Positions 19,782 through 29,472 of a stretch of DNA of 64,000 nucleotides are shown here, piece after piece. The DNA is taken from positions 62,001 through 126,000 of the forward strand of contig CAJONE010000001.1 in assembly GCA_905235855.1 (NCBI GenBank). Direction: 5' to 3'. This stretch comes from an uncultured Bacteroidales bacterium (lineage in GTDB: Bacteria; Bacteroidota; Bacteroidia; Bacteroidales; P3). A program made the position numbers and the translations under genes. Numbering within the stretch: the stretch's first letter is position 1; each line of letters starts with the position of its first letter. The notes below the pieces were generated by a model that saw only the letters and a list, made by a program, of their open reading frames with translations, was not told where the DNA came from and made no database searches.

Positions 19782-20732
19782 TCACTTTATTATCCCTAAC
19801 TTGCGCGACATTTCCAGCATTCTCACTATGGGCTTACGCGCGGATTCTATCTGCGATTCTGTCATAACTATTTCTGGACTCTCATTGAGCAAACATGCAT
19901 ACAGCTTCTCCAATGTGTTTATCTTCATATATCCACAGTCATCACAGGCGCAACATTTTTCATCCTTCAAGGTTATAAATTCCTTATCCGGATTCTCCTT
20001 TTTCATCTCGTAAAGTATGCCGCTCTCTGTTGCTATAATAAATCGTTTCGCTGACGACGACTTTATGTGTTTCAACATCGCTTTTGTCGACCCCACAAAA
20101 TCAGCCACCTGCAGAAGCGCTGCGTTACATTCAGGATGTGCTATTACAGGGGCATCCCTATTTTCTTCTTTAAGTTTTATAACCGCCTCTGCCTGCATAG
20201 CATCATGCACGGTACACACCCCGTTCCATAAAACCATTTGGCGTCCAGTTACTTGGTTGATGTAACTTCCCAAATTCTTGTCTGGTGCAAATATTATTTT
20301 CTGATTTTCTGGCATTGCTCTGACCAACTTCTCGGCATTGCCGCTTGTACATATCAAATCACTTAAACATTTAATTTCGGCCGAACAGTTTATGTAAGAT
20401 ATCACTATATGGTCAGGATGTTCAGCCTTAAAACGCGAAAAATCCTCTGCCTTGCAACTTTCGGCCAACGAACACGATGCTTTCATATCAGGTAAAAGAA
20501 CTTTGCGTCCTGGGTTCAGTATCTTCGCTGTCTCAGCCATAAAATGCACACCACAAAACACAATGATGTCACTTTCGCACCGCTGAGCCTCTTGAGCCAA
20601 AGCCAGACTGTCTCCAATGTAATCCGACACCTCTTGAATCTCCGGGCGCTGATAGTAATGTCCCAAAATCACAGCATTCTTTTGCCGTTTGAGTTCCATT
20701 ATTTTTTCAAAAAGTTGATTGCTTTTAACCAT
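19782..20732 (-). CDS. nadA: Quinolinate synthase A
   Basis: AVILGHYYQRPEIQEVSDYIGDSL; FCGVHFMAETAKIL; PDMKASCSLAESC; AHPECNAALLQVADFVGST. Confidence 0.96.
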   Translation of the reverse strand: MVKSNQLFEKIMELKRQKNAVILGHYYQRPEIQEVSDYIGDSLALAQEAQRCESDIIVFCGVHFMAETAKILNPGRKVLLPDMKASCSLAESCKAEDFSRFKAEHPDHIVISYINCSAEIKCLSDLICTSGNAEKLVRAMPENQKIIFAPDKNLGSYINQVTGRQMVLWNGVCTVHDAMQAEAVIKLKEENRDAPVIAHPECNAALLQVADFVGSTKAMLKHIKSSSAKRFIIATESGILYEMKKENPDKEFITLKDEKCCACDDCGYMKINTLEKLYACLLNESPEIVMTESQIESARKPIVRMLEMSRKLGIIK

Positions 20733-20775
20733 AGTTATAATTTAATAAACTCTGATTTGGTGTATAATAACAATG

Positions 20776-20783
20776 CAAAGTTA
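20776..20783 (-). promoter_or_regulatory. -7 element upstream of nadA
   Basis: Reverse strand TAACTTTG matches TAnnTTTG; no clear -33 partner. Confidence 0.5.
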
Positions 20784-20809
20784 CAAAATTTCACATGCTA
20801 ATCCGCATG

Positions 20810-22065: not shown

Positions 22066-22085
22066 ATCTTATTTTCTGATTTGTG

Positions 22086-22117
22086 CAAAAATACTTAAAA
22101 AACTTGATATTGTGCAA
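22086..22117 (-). promoter_or_regulatory. Probable promoter for the SDR gene
   Basis: Reverse strand TTG-N21-TATTTTTG. Confidence 0.6.
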
Positions 22118-22432
22118 CTACTCCTTCTATACCAAATAGTCTTATTTTCCATAATATCACAATATTCTTTCAGCGAAAGACATAGGAAAACAATCAAATG
22201 TTTGATATTTTGGTTTTTATGTTTTTTACGTAACTACTTGATTTATCTTGAGATATTGTTTCTCATATTTTATTTTCTTCTTCATATTTCAGTCCTGAAT
22301 ATTCTATACTCCTGACACCTGCATAATCCCTTGTTTCGCATTATTTTCGTAATTTTGCATTATCATTAGAGGAGGCTGCTTTTTCTCGCCGACTATTATT
22401 AATTCGCAACATTCGCGGTTGCAATCCTATTT

Positions 22433-25400
22433 ATGGAAAAGTCAAAAGGATTACTTATAGAGAGTCTGGATTCGTTTATCCGAAAGTATTACAAAAACCG
22501 ACTGATTCGAGGTATACTTTATTCTTCAGCCTTATTGCTATCATTGTTCCTTGTGATGGTGACAACAGAGTATTTTGGCTGGTTCGGCACAGGTATTCGT
22601 ACAGCCGTATTTTGGCTGTTTTTAACGGCAATTGTGATTGTTACAGGAATATATGTAATCGTCCCTTTTCTACAGATGCATCGGATTGCGGGCGGACTTT
22701 CTTATCATGCAGCAGCACAGATTGTCGGAAAACATTTTCCGGAGATCCAAGACAAATTACTAAATCTTCTGCAACTTCAGGAACTTGGCGGTTCGATTGA
22801 CGCATCATCTCAAGAATTGGTGCAAGCAAGCATCGAACAGAAGTCGACTCTACTTCGTGTTGTGCCCATAAACAACGCCATTAACCTGAAACTTAACCTT
22901 AAATATGTTAAATACGCTGCTTTTCCTATACTCGTGATAGTTGTTTTGCTAATTGTTAAGCCATCTTTCATTACAGATCCAACCCACCGCATTGTTAACC
23001 ATAATGCCATATATGTTCGTCCCGCACCTTTTAGTTTCGTGATAGAAAACTCAAGCTTAAATACTGTGCAAGGTGAAAATTTTTCAATTATGGTTTCTGT
23101 TATCGGTTCTGCTGTTCCCGAAGAAGCATATATCACAATAGAAGGGTACACATACAAAATGCAAACCGTTGACAAAACGCATTTCACATATGTGGTAAAT
23201 AATATACAGCACTCATGCAGTTTCACTCTGAGTGGGGGAGGGGTGACAACACATGAATATAAAATTAAGGTGTTTAACCAACCAATGGTGACATCATTCA
23301 ACATGCATCTTATTTATCCTATCCATACCGGCAAACCGTCCGAGACAATCTCAAACGTAGGTGACATTGTAGTTCCAGAAGGAACTTCTATAAAATGGAT
23401 TTTACATCTACGTCATACTGACAACATTACTTTCATTGTTGACAGTAATTATTCGTACTATAAACCTGATAAAAACGGAAGAATTGACATAAGCAAACAA
23501 GCCAAAAAAACTTTCCATTATGCTTTTACCATAAGCAACTCCAATGTGAAATCCGCAGATACTATGCGATACACCGTTTCAACAATAACAGACATCTATC
23601 CTCAAATATCAGTGATAGAAAAGCGAGATTCCATTTACAGCGACCATGTTTTTTTCAAAGGGCGTATTACAGATGACTACGGATTCCACAAAATGGACTT
23701 TGTAATAGTACATAACACTAATGATTTATCTGGCACTAAAATATCTGATACTCTGCGTCTTCCATTATCTGTTTCACGTGAAACCGAGCAAGATTTCACC
23801 TATTATTACAATCTCAAGTCTCTAAATATATCCATGGGCGACCATCTTTTCTACTACTTCCAAGTTTGGGATAACGATGCTCCATACGGATTTAAATCCA
23901 CAAAATCAAAGATTTTTGAATTTTCTATACCTTCAGAGGACGAACTTAAAGAAACCATTTCTAACAACGTCGCTGACATACAATATAATGCATCTTTAAC
24001 CATAGATGAAATAAAAAAATTACAGCAAGAAATTGATGAGATAGTAAGAAAAATGATAGACAAAAAAAATCTTAACTGGCAGGATAAACAAGAATTGAAA
24101 CGCATTACTGAAAAACAAAAAGAACTACATGAAAAAATTCAACAGATAAAGGATAACTTACAGCATAATAACTTATTGAAAGAAAAATACTATAATCAAA
24201 GCGAAAAATTAATAGAAAAACAGCGGGAAATAGAAAATCTGATGGAAAACATGATGAGCGATGAGATGAAAAATACATTAGAGGAAATAGAACGCCTTTT
24301 AGAAGAATCAGATAAACTACAGATGCAAGAGCAACTTGAAAAACTCAAAATGGAAAATTTTGGTTTGGAAAAACAGCTTGATCAAAACCTTAACTTGATG
24401 AAACGGATTGAGCTGGAATCGCGTGTCGAGTCCGCTGTTGAATCATTAAAGAAATTATCAGAAGAACAACGAAATCTTGCCAATGAAAACAAAAATAACA
24501 AAGAAAAAGACATTGACAAGCAGAAAAATCAACAACAGGATTTATCAAACAAATTTCAACATCTAAAACATGATCTTAAATCCATAGAGCAAGACTACAA
24601 CCAACTTGAACCTTCTTCCTCATTCAAACCAAACGAACAATTACAAGAAAATATAGAACAACAACAGAATAATGCCCAAAAGCAACTGAATAAAGGCAAC
24701 AACAAATCCGCAGCGATGTCTCAAAATAAGGCGGCTGACGGCCTTGACTCTTTGGCAAATCAACTAAAACAGGAAATGGAACGAATGGAACAAGAGGAAA
24801 CGAGCGAAGACGCAGAACAGATACGACAAATGCTTAAGAATCTGGTTGGCATTTCTTTCAACCAAGAATCACTTATTTCTAAAACAGGAGAGACCTTTAT
24901 CCAAGACCCCAACTATCAAACAATAATCATTAACCAAAACCAGATAAAAGACGACTTTAGCCTGATAGAAGACTCGTTGCGCAGTATATCAAGAAGACAG
25001 TTGAACGTAGCCTCTGCCATTAACCAAAATCTCAGCGAGGTTAACACAAATATCAACAAATCGCTCAATACGTTGCTAACATATAACCAGTCATTCTATG
25101 GCAATTCTAAGAATATAGGAGCAACAAAATGGATGCAGTATTCTATGACATCTATAAATAATCTTGCATTGCTACTCGCTGAATCACTTGACAAGATGCA
25201 AGACCAACAAAGGCAAAACAAAAACGGACAATGTCAAAATTCTTCAAAAATGAAGTCTAAGGGAAAATGCAATAATCCAGGAAAAAATCCATCTCCAAAA
25301 ACGATGAAAAAATTGCAGGAAGAACTAAACAAACAGTTAGAAGCACTCAAAAAACAACTCGATAAAGATGGAAAACCAACTGTTCGAAAACAAATAGGTG

Positions 25401-25843
25401 AAAAGAACAGTATGAGCGAACAACTAGCAAAGATGGCAGCCCAACAGGAAATGATACGTCGAATGATGCAAGAATATGGACAACGTATGAAAGAAAACAA
25501 TGCCAATAACACAAAACTTGCCAAAGAAATAGAACAAATACAGCATCAGATGGAACAAACAGAACAAGACATAATTAACCGCACAATTTCTCAACAATCT
25601 ATCTTACGGCAACAACAAATTCTTACGCGATTACTTGATTATGAGAAAGCAGAAATGCAACAAGAAAAGGATGATAAGCGCCAAAGTCGTGAATCCCATG
25701 AATTAAATACTATTTTTAGCCCTAATGATTTGGAAATATACAATCATTTAAAACTTAACAGCGTCGATTCATTCAGACGCTCTGTACCTTCTATGACTAA
25801 TTTTTACAAAACAAAAGTTTCAAATTATTTCTATAAGTTATAG
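22433..25843 (+). CDS. Large membrane-anchored coiled-coil protein, DUF4175-like
   Basis: Two N-terminal TM segments, beta-rich middle, long K/E/Q-rich coiled coil (about 530-1080 aa). Confidence 0.65.
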   Translation: MEKSKGLLIESLDSFIRKYYKNRLIRGILYSSALLLSLFLVMVTTEYFGWFGTGIRTAVFWLFLTAIVIVTGIYVIVPFLQMHRIAGGLSYHAAAQIVGKHFPEIQDKLLNLLQLQELGGSIDASSQELVQASIEQKSTLLRVVPINNAINLKLNLKYVKYAAFPILVIVVLLIVKPSFITDPTHRIVNHNAIYVRPAPFSFVIENSSLNTVQGENFSIMVSVIGSAVPEEAYITIEGYTYKMQTVDKTHFTYVVNNIQHSCSFTLSGGGVTTHEYKIKVFNQPMVTSFNMHLIYPIHTGKPSETISNVGDIVVPEGTSIKWILHLRHTDNITFIVDSNYSYYKPDKNGRIDISKQAKKTFHYAFTISNSNVKSADTMRYTVSTITDIYPQISVIEKRDSIYSDHVFFKGRITDDYGFHKMDFVIVHNTNDLSGTKISDTLRLPLSVSRETEQDFTYYYNLKSLNISMGDHLFYYFQVWDNDAPYGFKSTKSKIFEFSIPSEDELKETISNNVADIQYNASLTIDEIKKLQQEIDEIVRKMIDKKNLNWQDKQELKRITEKQKELHEKIQQIKDNLQHNNLLKEKYYNQSEKLIEKQREIENLMENMMSDEMKNTLEEIERLLEESDKLQMQEQLEKLKMENFGLEKQLDQNLNLMKRIELESRVESAVESLKKLSEEQRNLANENKNNKEKDIDKQKNQQQDLSNKFQHLKHDLKSIEQDYNQLEPSSSFKPNEQLQENIEQQQNNAQKQLNKGNNKSAAMSQNKAADGLDSLANQLKQEMERMEQEETSEDAEQIRQMLKNLVGISFNQESLISKTGETFIQDPNYQTIIINQNQIKDDFSLIEDSLRSISRRQLNVASAINQNLSEVNTNINKSLNTLLTYNQSFYGNSKNIGATKWMQYSMTSINNLALLLAESLDKMQDQQRQNKNGQCQNSSKMKSKGKCNNPGKNPSPKTMKKLQEELNKQLEALKKQLDKDGKPTVRKQIGEKNSMSEQLAKMAAQQEMIRRMMQEYGQRMKENNANNTKLAKEIEQIQHQMEQTEQDIINRTISQQSILRQQQILTRLLDYEKAEMQQEKDDKRQSRESHELNTIFSPNDLEIYNHLKLNSVDSFRRSVPSMTNFYKTKVSNYFYKL
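23770..23785. promoter_or_regulatory. parS-like ParB-binding site
   Basis: TGTTTCACGTGAAACC: 15/16 match to TGTTTCACGTGAAACA with a perfect 14-bp palindromic core GTTTCACGTGAAAC. Confidence 0.75.
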
Positions 25844-26283
25844 AAATAATTTCACAAACATTAATTATTAATTATAATAATAAATTTAATTATAATTTTA
25901 TGTTTTGTCAATATTGTTGATATCGTGTGTTTCAATTTCAGACAATAATTTATTTGCAGTTGTTTCAACATAAATATGAACATTGTAAGAATCTAAAAAC
26001 AAATATTTTTTTTTGTTTTTAACACATGTTTATAAATGGTAAATTAGAAATTGTTGAAATTGTTACGAAACCGAATTTATGTGAATTTATTTTCATATCT
26101 TATGTTTTTATAAACGTGGGTTAAGAAAAATATAGACTATACCTTTTTTGAGTGAATGTTATTAACAAATATTGCTAAGTTGAATTTTTCATTATCTTTA
26201 TAATCTAATTATGTTAATAAATTATAAAATTATTTGACATAATTTATTCATAATATTGTACCTTTGTAATAGTATAATTTATT
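25844..26283. other. Candidate chromosomal replication origin (oriC) region
   Basis: 440-bp very AT-rich intergenic gap; plus-strand skew changes from C>G to G>C across it; flanked by two parS-like sites; mnmG nearby. No perfect TTATCCACA DnaA box seen. Confidence 0.55.
26233..26266 (+). promoter_or_regulatory. Probable promoter for the HATPase gene
   Basis: TTTG (26233-26236), 22-bp spacer, TACCTTTG (26259-26266). Confidence 0.6.
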
Positions 26284-26742
26284 ATGGTTGCTATGGAAGA
26301 TCTTGTTATTCAGTCAAATGATCAAAATATAGAAAAGGTAGAGTCTTTTCTATGGGATATATGCGAATCAAACCATATTACAGATTATTTCGGAATAATA
26401 TCTGTTCCAGTTGTTCAGGCTGTAAAAAACTCTATTCATCATGGAAATCATGATGATGATGGAAAAAAGGTATATATATCATGCAAATATATTCAGTCGG
26501 GTATCTCATTTAGTGTTTCAGATGAGGGAGAGGGCTTCGACCATTATAAATATGGTGAATTTCCCATGAATGATGGCGATAGAAAGGGTCTTTATCTGAT
26601 AAAACACCTCGCTGATAATGTTTCTTACGTTGACGGATGCCTTTCTATGGATTTTATGATATGTGGTGTTGATGAGCGATTTGCATCCATGAGACGCAAA
26701 GTCATTGAAAACTTTGGTGTGAAAAATACTGTGTCTGTATAG
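26284..26742 (+). CDS. ATP-binding protein, anti-sigma-factor-like HATPase
   Basis: N-box-like AVKNSIHHGN; G-box-like VSDEGEGFD; GLYLIKHLADNV. Confidence 0.8.
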   Translation: MVAMEDLVIQSNDQNIEKVESFLWDICESNHITDYFGIISVPVVQAVKNSIHHGNHDDDGKKVYISCKYIQSGISFSVSDEGEGFDHYKYGEFPMNDGDRKGLYLIKHLADNVSYVDGCLSMDFMICGVDERFASMRRKVIENFGVKNTVSV

Positions 26743-26954: not shown

Positions 26955-27389
26955 ATGGCTGTTTCTTTTATCGAGAACATTGATGATTTTATTCTCACTG
27001 ACAAATCAATTTTACAGAGATGGCTTTCACAAATTATTCAAGAGGATGGTAAGAGAGTTGGAAAAATAGTGTATCTATTTAGTAACGATGAGTATGTTCA
27101 CGCTGTCAACAAACATTATCTTCGCCATGATACATATACAGATATAATCACATTTGACTACGTCGAGGGAGATCTCATTTCAGGTGATATTTTAATCAGT
27201 ATAGATAGAGTTAAAGAAAATGCCAGAAAGTTTTGCAGCACGTTTTCAGATGAATTGCACCGTGTAATTGTTCACGGAGTTTTGCATCTTTTAGGGCAAG
27301 GTGATAAGTCGAAACAGGAGTTGTTGGAAATGAGAAAAAAAGAGAATTCAGCACTTGCTAAATTACAAGAAATCACCGAAAAAAAATGA
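26955..27389 (+). CDS. ybeY: rRNA maturation RNase YbeY
   Basis: HRVIVHGVLHLLGQGD metal-binding motif; TDIITFDY. Confidence 0.92.
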   Translation: MAVSFIENIDDFILTDKSILQRWLSQIIQEDGKRVGKIVYLFSNDEYVHAVNKHYLRHDTYTDIITFDYVEGDLISGDILISIDRVKENARKFCSTFSDELHRVIVHGVLHLLGQGDKSKQELLEMRKKENSALAKLQEITEKK

Positions 27390-27543: not shown

Positions 27544-29454
27544 ATGAAGTGGTTAAAATATGATATAGTTGTTGTTGGGGGAGGACACGCAGGTTCAGAG
27601 GCTGCAAATGCGGCAGCACAGATGGGCGTAAACACGTTGCTTGTGACACAGGATATTGATTCTATTGCACGAATGTCGTGCAATCCAGCTATGGGAGGTG
27701 TTGCAAAAGGACAAATCGTCAGAGAAATCGATGCTCTTGGGGGAATGTCGGGTATTATCACTGACAGGTCAGCAATTCAATATCGCATGCTGAATCGATC
27801 TAAAGGACCGGCTATGTGGAGTCCTCGTGCACAATGTGATAGGGCAATGTTCTCGTCAGAGTGGAAAAAACATCTTGAGCATATTCCAAATTTAAGTATT
27901 TGGCAAGATGAGGTAATTGAAATTATAGAGCGAAACGGCAGAGTAAGCGGGGTTCGGACACGAATGGATATTGAAATTCCTGCCAATGCCGTGATTTTAA
28001 CAAATGGAACATTTCTCAATGGTCGTATTTTTATTGGAGAAGTCTGTCTTGAGGGTGGAAGGATAGGGGAGAGACCAGCAAAAGGTCTTTCTGATTTTTT
28101 TCGCTCATTGGGTTTTGAAGTTGCTCGACTAAAAACCGGCACGCCTGTACGCGTAGATGGACGAACTATTGATTTTTCAAAGCTTGTAGAGCAACCAGGC
28201 GATGACAAGCCACAAGGTTTTTCCTTCCTACCTACCGAAAGGCGTTATGTAAATCAAAGGTCGTGTTTTATAGCATATACTAATGAGAAAACTCATGATA
28301 TACTACGCAAAGGATTTGACCGCTCTCCAATGTACAGGGGAATTATAAAAGGTCGTGGACCGCGATATTGCCCTTCCATAGAAGATAAAATAGTTCGCTT
28401 CTCGGATAAAAACCGTCATCAGCTTTTTGTCGAACCTGAGGGAAAAGAAACTGTATCATTCTATCTAAATGGTTTTTCATCATCGCTTCCGATAGAAATA
28501 CAAACGGAAGCACTACACTCTATTCAAGGATTTGAAAACTCCCGTATTATCAAACCCGGCTATGCCATAGAATACGATTTTTTTCCACCAACACAATTGA
28601 ACTATACTCTTGAAACCAAGATAGTCGAAGGGCTTTACTTCGCGGGACAGATTAACGGTACTACGGGGTATGAAGAAGCCGCATGTCAGGGTCTCGTTGC
28701 GGGAATCAATGCTGCGGCAAAACTCAAAGGACTTGAGCCACTCGTATTATCACGTGAGCAAGCATATATTGGTGTGCTTATTGATGACCTTGTCTCCAAA
28801 GGGGTAGACGAGCCATACAGAATGTTCACTTCACGTGCAGAACATCGTATACTGCTTCGTCAGGACAATGCGGACGAACGTCTTACCCCAATATCATACG
28901 GAAAATATCATCTGGCCAGCGAGCAACGTATGAGACTTGTGGAAAGAAAGCAAGAGAATTTTTCACATCTTGTTGAACTTTTATCCGTTTTGTCGGTCAA
29001 ACCATCGGAGGTGAACGAGAAAATGAGCGAATTGGGTACATCCCAATTGCGTCAGCGATCCGATTTAAAAAGTTTGTTGCTTCGTCCAGAAATCAGTATG
29101 TCGCAACTTGCAGAATGTTCGTCTGATTTCTCGCAAGCCATAGAGTCTATTCCATCGGATATACGTGAAGAGGTTGTCGAGTCAGTTGAAATATCAATAA
29201 AGTACGAAAGGTATATTGAGAAAGAACAAGAAGTGGCAAGGCGGGTTCTCAAGTTTGAGAATGTGATAATACCGTCAGACTTAAATTACCATTCTATATA
29301 TGCCATATCGTATGAGGCGCGAGAAAAATTATCTCGACAGAGACCTCAAACGTTAGGGCAAGCATCAAGAATAAGTGGTGTCTCGCCGGCAGATATTTCG
29401 GTATTGCTTGCCTACTGCGTTACACAAAAAGATTGTGGAAGGGAGAGTCGTTAA
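27544..29454 (+). CDS. mnmG: tRNA uridine 5-carboxymethylaminomethyl modification enzyme MnmG (GidA)
   Basis: YDIVVVGGGHAGSEAANAAAQMG; SCNPAMGGVAKGQIVREIDALGG; FAGQINGTTGYEEAACQGLVAGINAA. Confidence 0.97.
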   Translation: MKWLKYDIVVVGGGHAGSEAANAAAQMGVNTLLVTQDIDSIARMSCNPAMGGVAKGQIVREIDALGGMSGIITDRSAIQYRMLNRSKGPAMWSPRAQCDRAMFSSEWKKHLEHIPNLSIWQDEVIEIIERNGRVSGVRTRMDIEIPANAVILTNGTFLNGRIFIGEVCLEGGRIGERPAKGLSDFFRSLGFEVARLKTGTPVRVDGRTIDFSKLVEQPGDDKPQGFSFLPTERRYVNQRSCFIAYTNEKTHDILRKGFDRSPMYRGIIKGRGPRYCPSIEDKIVRFSDKNRHQLFVEPEGKETVSFYLNGFSSSLPIEIQTEALHSIQGFENSRIIKPGYAIEYDFFPPTQLNYTLETKIVEGLYFAGQINGTTGYEEAACQGLVAGINAAAKLKGLEPLVLSREQAYIGVLIDDLVSKGVDEPYRMFTSRAEHRILLRQDNADERLTPISYGKYHLASEQRMRLVERKQENFSHLVELLSVLSVKPSEVNEKMSELGTSQLRQRSDLKSLLLRPEISMSQLAECSSDFSQAIESIPSDIREEVVESVEISIKYERYIEKEQEVARRVLKFENVIIPSDLNYHSIYAISYEAREKLSRQRPQTLGQASRISGVSPADISVLLAYCVTQKDCGRESR

Positions 29455-29456
29455 AA

Positions 29457-29472
29457 TGTTTCACGGGAAACA
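29457..29472. promoter_or_regulatory. parS-like ParB-binding site
   Basis: TGTTTCACGGGAAACA: 15/16 match to TGTTTCACGTGAAACA, 3 bp after the mnmG stop. Confidence 0.6.

Follow-up and report, generated by a model that had tools for sequence, protein, structure and literature searches.

We found that the intergenic gap at positions 25844-26283 of the window (the 64-kb stretch of DNA analysed here, to which coordinates refer unless another contig is named) is very probably the chromosomal origin of replication, oriC, and that this origin has likely been relocated relative to congeneric genomes. Our full explanation, which we hold with considerable confidence, is that the gap represents an oriC with lineage-specific boxes whose module moved there from between nadA and rpiB, the old site being lost. 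The strongest evidence for the putative oriC, which also bears out the original prediction of an origin at this place, is a conserved core together with a box array, which in this genome occur only in the gap, and the apparent loss of the ancestral segment. We build on a skew step, the box array, the core, gene synteny, the absence of a segment and an altered skew in the genes that would have been crossed. The window comprises bases 62001-126000 of contig C1 (132,721 bp) in a 2.25-Mb assembly of 133 contigs that is about 93% complete and comes from a gut-type, uncultivated member of the Bacteroidales.

The cumulative GC skew falls before and rises after a minimum at 25859, both in the window and over the whole contig. 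This places the minimum inside the 25.5-26.5 kb interval in which the inflection had been expected. The original prediction relied on G and C counts of ten single lines, all correct to within one base, and held that the switch does not simply follow gene orientation. When gene orientation was modelled, a single step in third-position skew gained 81 log-likelihood units, while 60 permutations of the genes gained 26 at most. As the step is highly significant under this model, the strand on which genes lie does not account for the flip. Skew alone gives only a loose position for it. The claim that the switch coincides with the AT-rich gap agrees with the minimum, but third-position skew is best fitted by a break at 22.25 kb, which exceeds the gap by 3.8 log-likelihood units. 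Fourfold sites leave breaks at 22.2 and 27.5 kb indistinguishable, and a break at 22.2 kb is compatible with part of the signal.

The relatives provided the features by which an origin of this lineage may be recognized. In about 20 congeneric genomes, an AT-rich spacer located 4.6-13 kb left of the DUF4175 gene separates the divergent genes nadA and rpiB, and a perfect parS site is present near nadA in most of the congeneric genomes examined. We counted words in 18 of these spacers against dinucleotide shuffles; a simple motif EM was dropped because it drifted to low-complexity sequence. TCAACA was by far the most enriched 6-mer (110 observed versus 14.5 expected), mainly in the forms TTTTCAACA and TTATCAACA, and in most genomes examined box density peaked in the nadA-rpiB spacer or, in the sisters, in the nadA-rpiB interval. 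At least six relatives also carry the 19-mer TTGTCAATATTGTTGATAA in this spacer with at most one mismatch. It keeps a single orientation in the spacers of the genus, is exact or nearly exact in many and degenerate in others, and is exact in the spacer of a named rumen MAG (L038, 189-743). Arrays of TTWTCAACA together with this core were seen in the nadA-rpiB spacers of many uncultivated relatives (e.g. L259, L261, L258, L265, L038). In Carboxylicivirga (L095, 461-990), nadA and rpiB diverge from a spacer of 25% GC about 9 kb from mnmG; TCAACA boxes are absent from it, and the DnaA box of this organism may differ. Contig skew was rejected as a means of placing the origin in relatives, since the offsets were noisy with an uncertainty of at least several kb, and in two genomes (G002, G085) the contig minimum lies elsewhere.

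We then compared the gap with these features (Table 1). It is the most AT-rich 440 bp of the window (18% GC), matching its earlier description as the AT-richest non-coding stretch, and a 61-bp element that would qualify for unwinding by its composition adjoins the core. The core is the only site in the 2.25 Mb that matches the 19-mer with at most one mismatch, and across 5000 shuffles of the gap the closest match had three. Three TCAACA cores are clustered in the gap (p = 0.009). No other spacer of the contig has three strong boxes, and 440-bp windows away from the gap never reach this number. The boxes are weaker than the best ones of the lineage, as neither TTATCAACA nor TTTTCAACA is present. 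These data also bear on the break at 22.25 kb, which would be expected if the origin lay further left, in the AT-rich divergent SDR-DUF4175 spacer (22066-22432) or near the nadA scar, and if the gap, which has a promoter-like end, were an AT-rich promoter region. We consider this very unlikely: the SDR-DUF4175 spacer has zero TCAACA boxes and no core element, and the promoter is confined to the last 80 bp of the gap.

Table 1. Features in and around the candidate origin (window coordinates).
Feature	Position	Strand	Remarks
nadA (quinolinate synthase A)	19782..20732	-	Pfam PF02445; left neighbour of the ancestral origin
Scar, nadA upstream spacer joined to the 150-aa gene	20733..20809	.	Site of the origin, rpiB, deoC and neighbours in relatives
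DUF4175-like large protein	22433..25843	+	Now left of the origin; Pfam PF13779 below the curated cut-off; synteny
parS TGTTTCACGTGAAACC	23770..23785	.	One mismatch; inside the DUF4175 gene; perfect parS at the same place in sisters
Inserted origin module (oriC candidate)	25844..26204	+	From the DUF4175 gene stop to the conserved RsbW-like promoter
Likely DNA-unwinding element	25844..25904	.	93% A+T; left-adjacent to the conserved core; role suggested by composition
Conserved origin core TTGTCAATATTGTTGATAT	25905..25923	+	One mismatch to the consensus of relatives
Box ATATCAACA	25915-25923	-	Within the origin core
Predicted lineage-type DnaA box GTTTCAACA	25962..25970	+	
Box variant TTATAAACA	26027..26035	-	12 observed versus 0.7 expected in the origins of relatives
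Predicted lineage-type DnaA box ATTTCAACA	26052..26060	-	
Weaker box-like TTATTAACA	26159..26167	+	Named in the original prediction; second copy at 26212-26220, minus strand
Conserved promoter region of the RsbW-like, ybeY and mnmG genes	26205..26283	+	Alignment with relative G073
RsbW-like HATPase	26284..26742	+	PF13581
ybeY	26955..27389	+	
mnmG (gidA)	27544..29454	+	
parS TGTTTCACGGGAAACA	29457..29472	.	One mismatch; just after mnmG; position conserved in many Bacteroidota

The E. coli-type box TTATCCACA is absent from 19.9-33.9 kb at up to one mismatch, and the gap had accordingly been described as lacking a perfect DnaA box. Because the box consensus depends on the species, the missing cluster rejects an origin of the E. 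coli type only. Clusters of this type failed as an origin marker in most relatives as well, where only scattered sites occur near the block. The form TTATTAACA that had been pointed out in the gap is indeed present but was compared with the wrong consensus: this lineage presumably uses TTWTCAACA. We infer this role from the sequence, supported by four such boxes upstream of the organism's own dnaA. Papers found in a literature search for TTWTCAACA dealt with a cyanobacterium and with phytoplasmas, none with Bacteroidota; DnaA boxes are often species-specific (PMC10225481). The DNA-binding helix of the DnaA protein encoded by the source genome reads DHATVLHA versus DHTTVIHA in the best-matching solved DnaA (8btg), a possible reason for an altered box.

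The gene for this protein lies outside the window, as had been stated, at 5898-7334 of contig C62, and the gap is thus not adjacent to dnaA. As a candidate origin, the gap competes mainly with the 792-bp spacer that precedes dnaA: dnaA-linked origins are common in bacteria, the spacer has 35% GC overall and positions 5241-5370 of C62 hold two copies of TTATCAACA, one of TTTTCAACA and one of GTTTCAACA within about 125 bp. If an active origin lay elsewhere, it would most plausibly be here, and the skew minimum of the window would be a relic of a former origin. We regard this as unlikely. Autoregulation, the probable role of the four boxes, would lead one to expect a box cluster in front of dnaA, and Bacteroidetes origins usually lie a long way from this gene (PMC4755523). 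Moreover, C62 lacks parS in a genome-wide search allowing two mismatches and lacks the core 19-mer within three mismatches, and its local skew minimum is 4.6 kb away from dnaA. A relic would also leave the new box array in the gap unexplained.

Accepting the gap as the probable oriC, we asked how it relates to the site used by the relatives. Between the DUF4175 and RsbW-like genes, relatives mostly have a spacer of 40-160 bp, distant ones an operon-like or overlapping arrangement, and none of these has a counterpart of the insert. In an alignment with G073, only 26205-26283, upstream of the next gene, is shared; this part contains TACCTTTG at 26259, which we take to be a Bacteroidetes-type -7 promoter motif. 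Taken alone, the short spacer of relatives and the missing E. coli-type boxes counted against an origin, and the gap was rejected as a conserved origin position. In the tree, the source genome is nested in a clade whose other members and outgroups keep the nadA-rpiB site, and hence its origin position is derived. It carries the core in the same orientation as the ancestral origins and not between nadA and rpiB. The insert of about 360 bp resembles the nadA-rpiB spacers of relatives in the forward direction (seven genomes, z 3.6-4.9) and shows no such resemblance in reverse (z about 0 or lower). The match to the spacers of the three closest sisters is weak (z 0.8-2.1).

At the ancestral position, nadA adjoins the 150-aa gene in the source genome, and the nadA side of the scar retains a promoter-like TGCAAAGTTAC; sisters have the 150-aa gene beside SDR. 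A search of the source assembly, run without a positive control, detected neither rpiB nor deoC; the rpiB query recovered an orthologue in 22 of 22 relatives. A serine palmitoyltransferase-like gene was represented in the assembly only by a 34% paralogue. Since this is a MAG assembly of 133 contigs, the missing rpiB/deoC segment could lie in unassembled sequence.

We next examined the genes that would have changed side. A rightward move of the origin across SDR and DUF4175 should have left DUF4175 coded on the lagging strand and SDR on the leading strand. Consistent with this prediction, the coding-strand third-position G/C skew of DUF4175 is the lowest of 23 genomes (-0.09 versus 0.18 ± 0.10) and that of SDR the highest (0.23 versus -0.21 ± 0.18). 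Compared with the three sisters, z was -4.5 for DUF4175 and +2.0 for SDR, and the 150-aa gene agreed weakly with the predicted direction (z = +1.5). Shifts against the sisters were also seen for mnmG (+2.9) and for the control gene PsU (z = -4.0), where none was predicted and two sisters are unusual. According to fitted skew coefficients, the value of DUF4175 is intermediate between those expected for the left and the right side of the contig, as it would be if mutation had not yet fully caught up with the move.

These observations speak to a further explanation, namely that the contig is misassembled, the window joining wrong pieces while the real genome retains nadA-oriC-rpiB. A metagenome-type assembly of this fragmentation and completeness could contain such an error, and a missed contig would equally explain why rpiB and deoC were not found. 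We consider it highly improbable, however, as the sequence at both joints is ordinary, the 150-aa gene adjoins SDR as in the sisters, the skew of DUF4175 and SDR has changed as a real switch of side would predict, and an origin core between the DUF4175 and RsbW-like genes is an unlikely product of an assembly error.

The surroundings of the gap identify a domain rather than a site. Three parS sites within two mismatches exist in the whole genome, and two of them flank the gap, 2.1 kb to the left and 3.2 kb to the right, confirming the parS-like sites noticed before. The third, a perfect parS at 5371 of contig C45, occurs without an origin block, and aligned flanks in two relatives (G070:C25, G073:C21) also have a perfect parS; by sequence it is a conserved distal parS. 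The order DUF4175-like, RsbW-like HATPase, ybeY, mnmG recurs, completely or partially, throughout Bacteroidota, often with parS directly before or directly after mnmG, and the best named matches of the source genome's mnmG come from uncultured rumen Bacteroidales. Thus, mnmG and parS mark an origin-proximal domain in many Bacteroidota and not the gap itself. Both are present as originally pointed out, but they are weak evidence for the gap and were rejected as such.

On the relocation reading, the genus would ancestrally have had its origin between nadA and rpiB. A module of about 360 bp would then have settled between the DUF4175 and RsbW-like genes with its orientation kept, and the old site would have been lost together with rpiB, deoC and neighbouring genes. 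It is reasonably likely that this was a recent natural transposition past o150-SDR-DUF4175, with the old site deleted and strand composition partly adjusted. In the present genome, DnaA would bind the array of TTWTCAACA and near-variants at 25905-26060 and open the adjoining AT-rich stretch, from which two forks would depart, leftwards and rightwards, while ParB would load at the two flanking parS sites and segregate the new origins. We infer DnaA binding, unwinding, fork firing and the order of events from the features described above.

Their distance from dnaA makes Bacteroidota origins difficult to locate, and most predictions have used the E. coli box. The combination of TTWTCAACA, the core and the nadA-rpiB location could serve as an origin finder for hundreds of uncultivated genomes and could give metagenomic growth-rate estimates a fixed reference point. 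An origin that moved while close relatives kept the old site would provide a natural experiment on the pace at which strand composition follows replication, and would inform how an essential unique site changes place. The partial catch-up of strand composition in side-changed genes, if true, would date the move.

Among known systems, the predicted oriC of Prevotella intermedia chromosome 1, one of the predicted Bacteroidetes origins far from dnaA (PMC4755523), is alike in being intergenic, at a skew switch and with a box cluster. It differs in that its prediction used the E. coli box, whereas the source genome has TTWTCAACA and a position that changed between sister species. The gidA-mioC origin of E. 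coli and Yersinia (PMC10225481) also combines an AT-rich stretch and DnaA boxes with a nearby mnmG (gidA) but has a different box and different neighbour genes; the mnmG link reflects a gene block conserved in Bacteroidota and does not argue for shared ancestry. The closest counterpart is the congeneric nadA-rpiB spacer, which shares the core TTGTCAATATTGTTGATAA, the box type, the AT-rich flank, the orientation and a nearby parS, and which represents the ancestral position; the module of the source genome is instead placed between DUF4175 and the RsbW-like gene.
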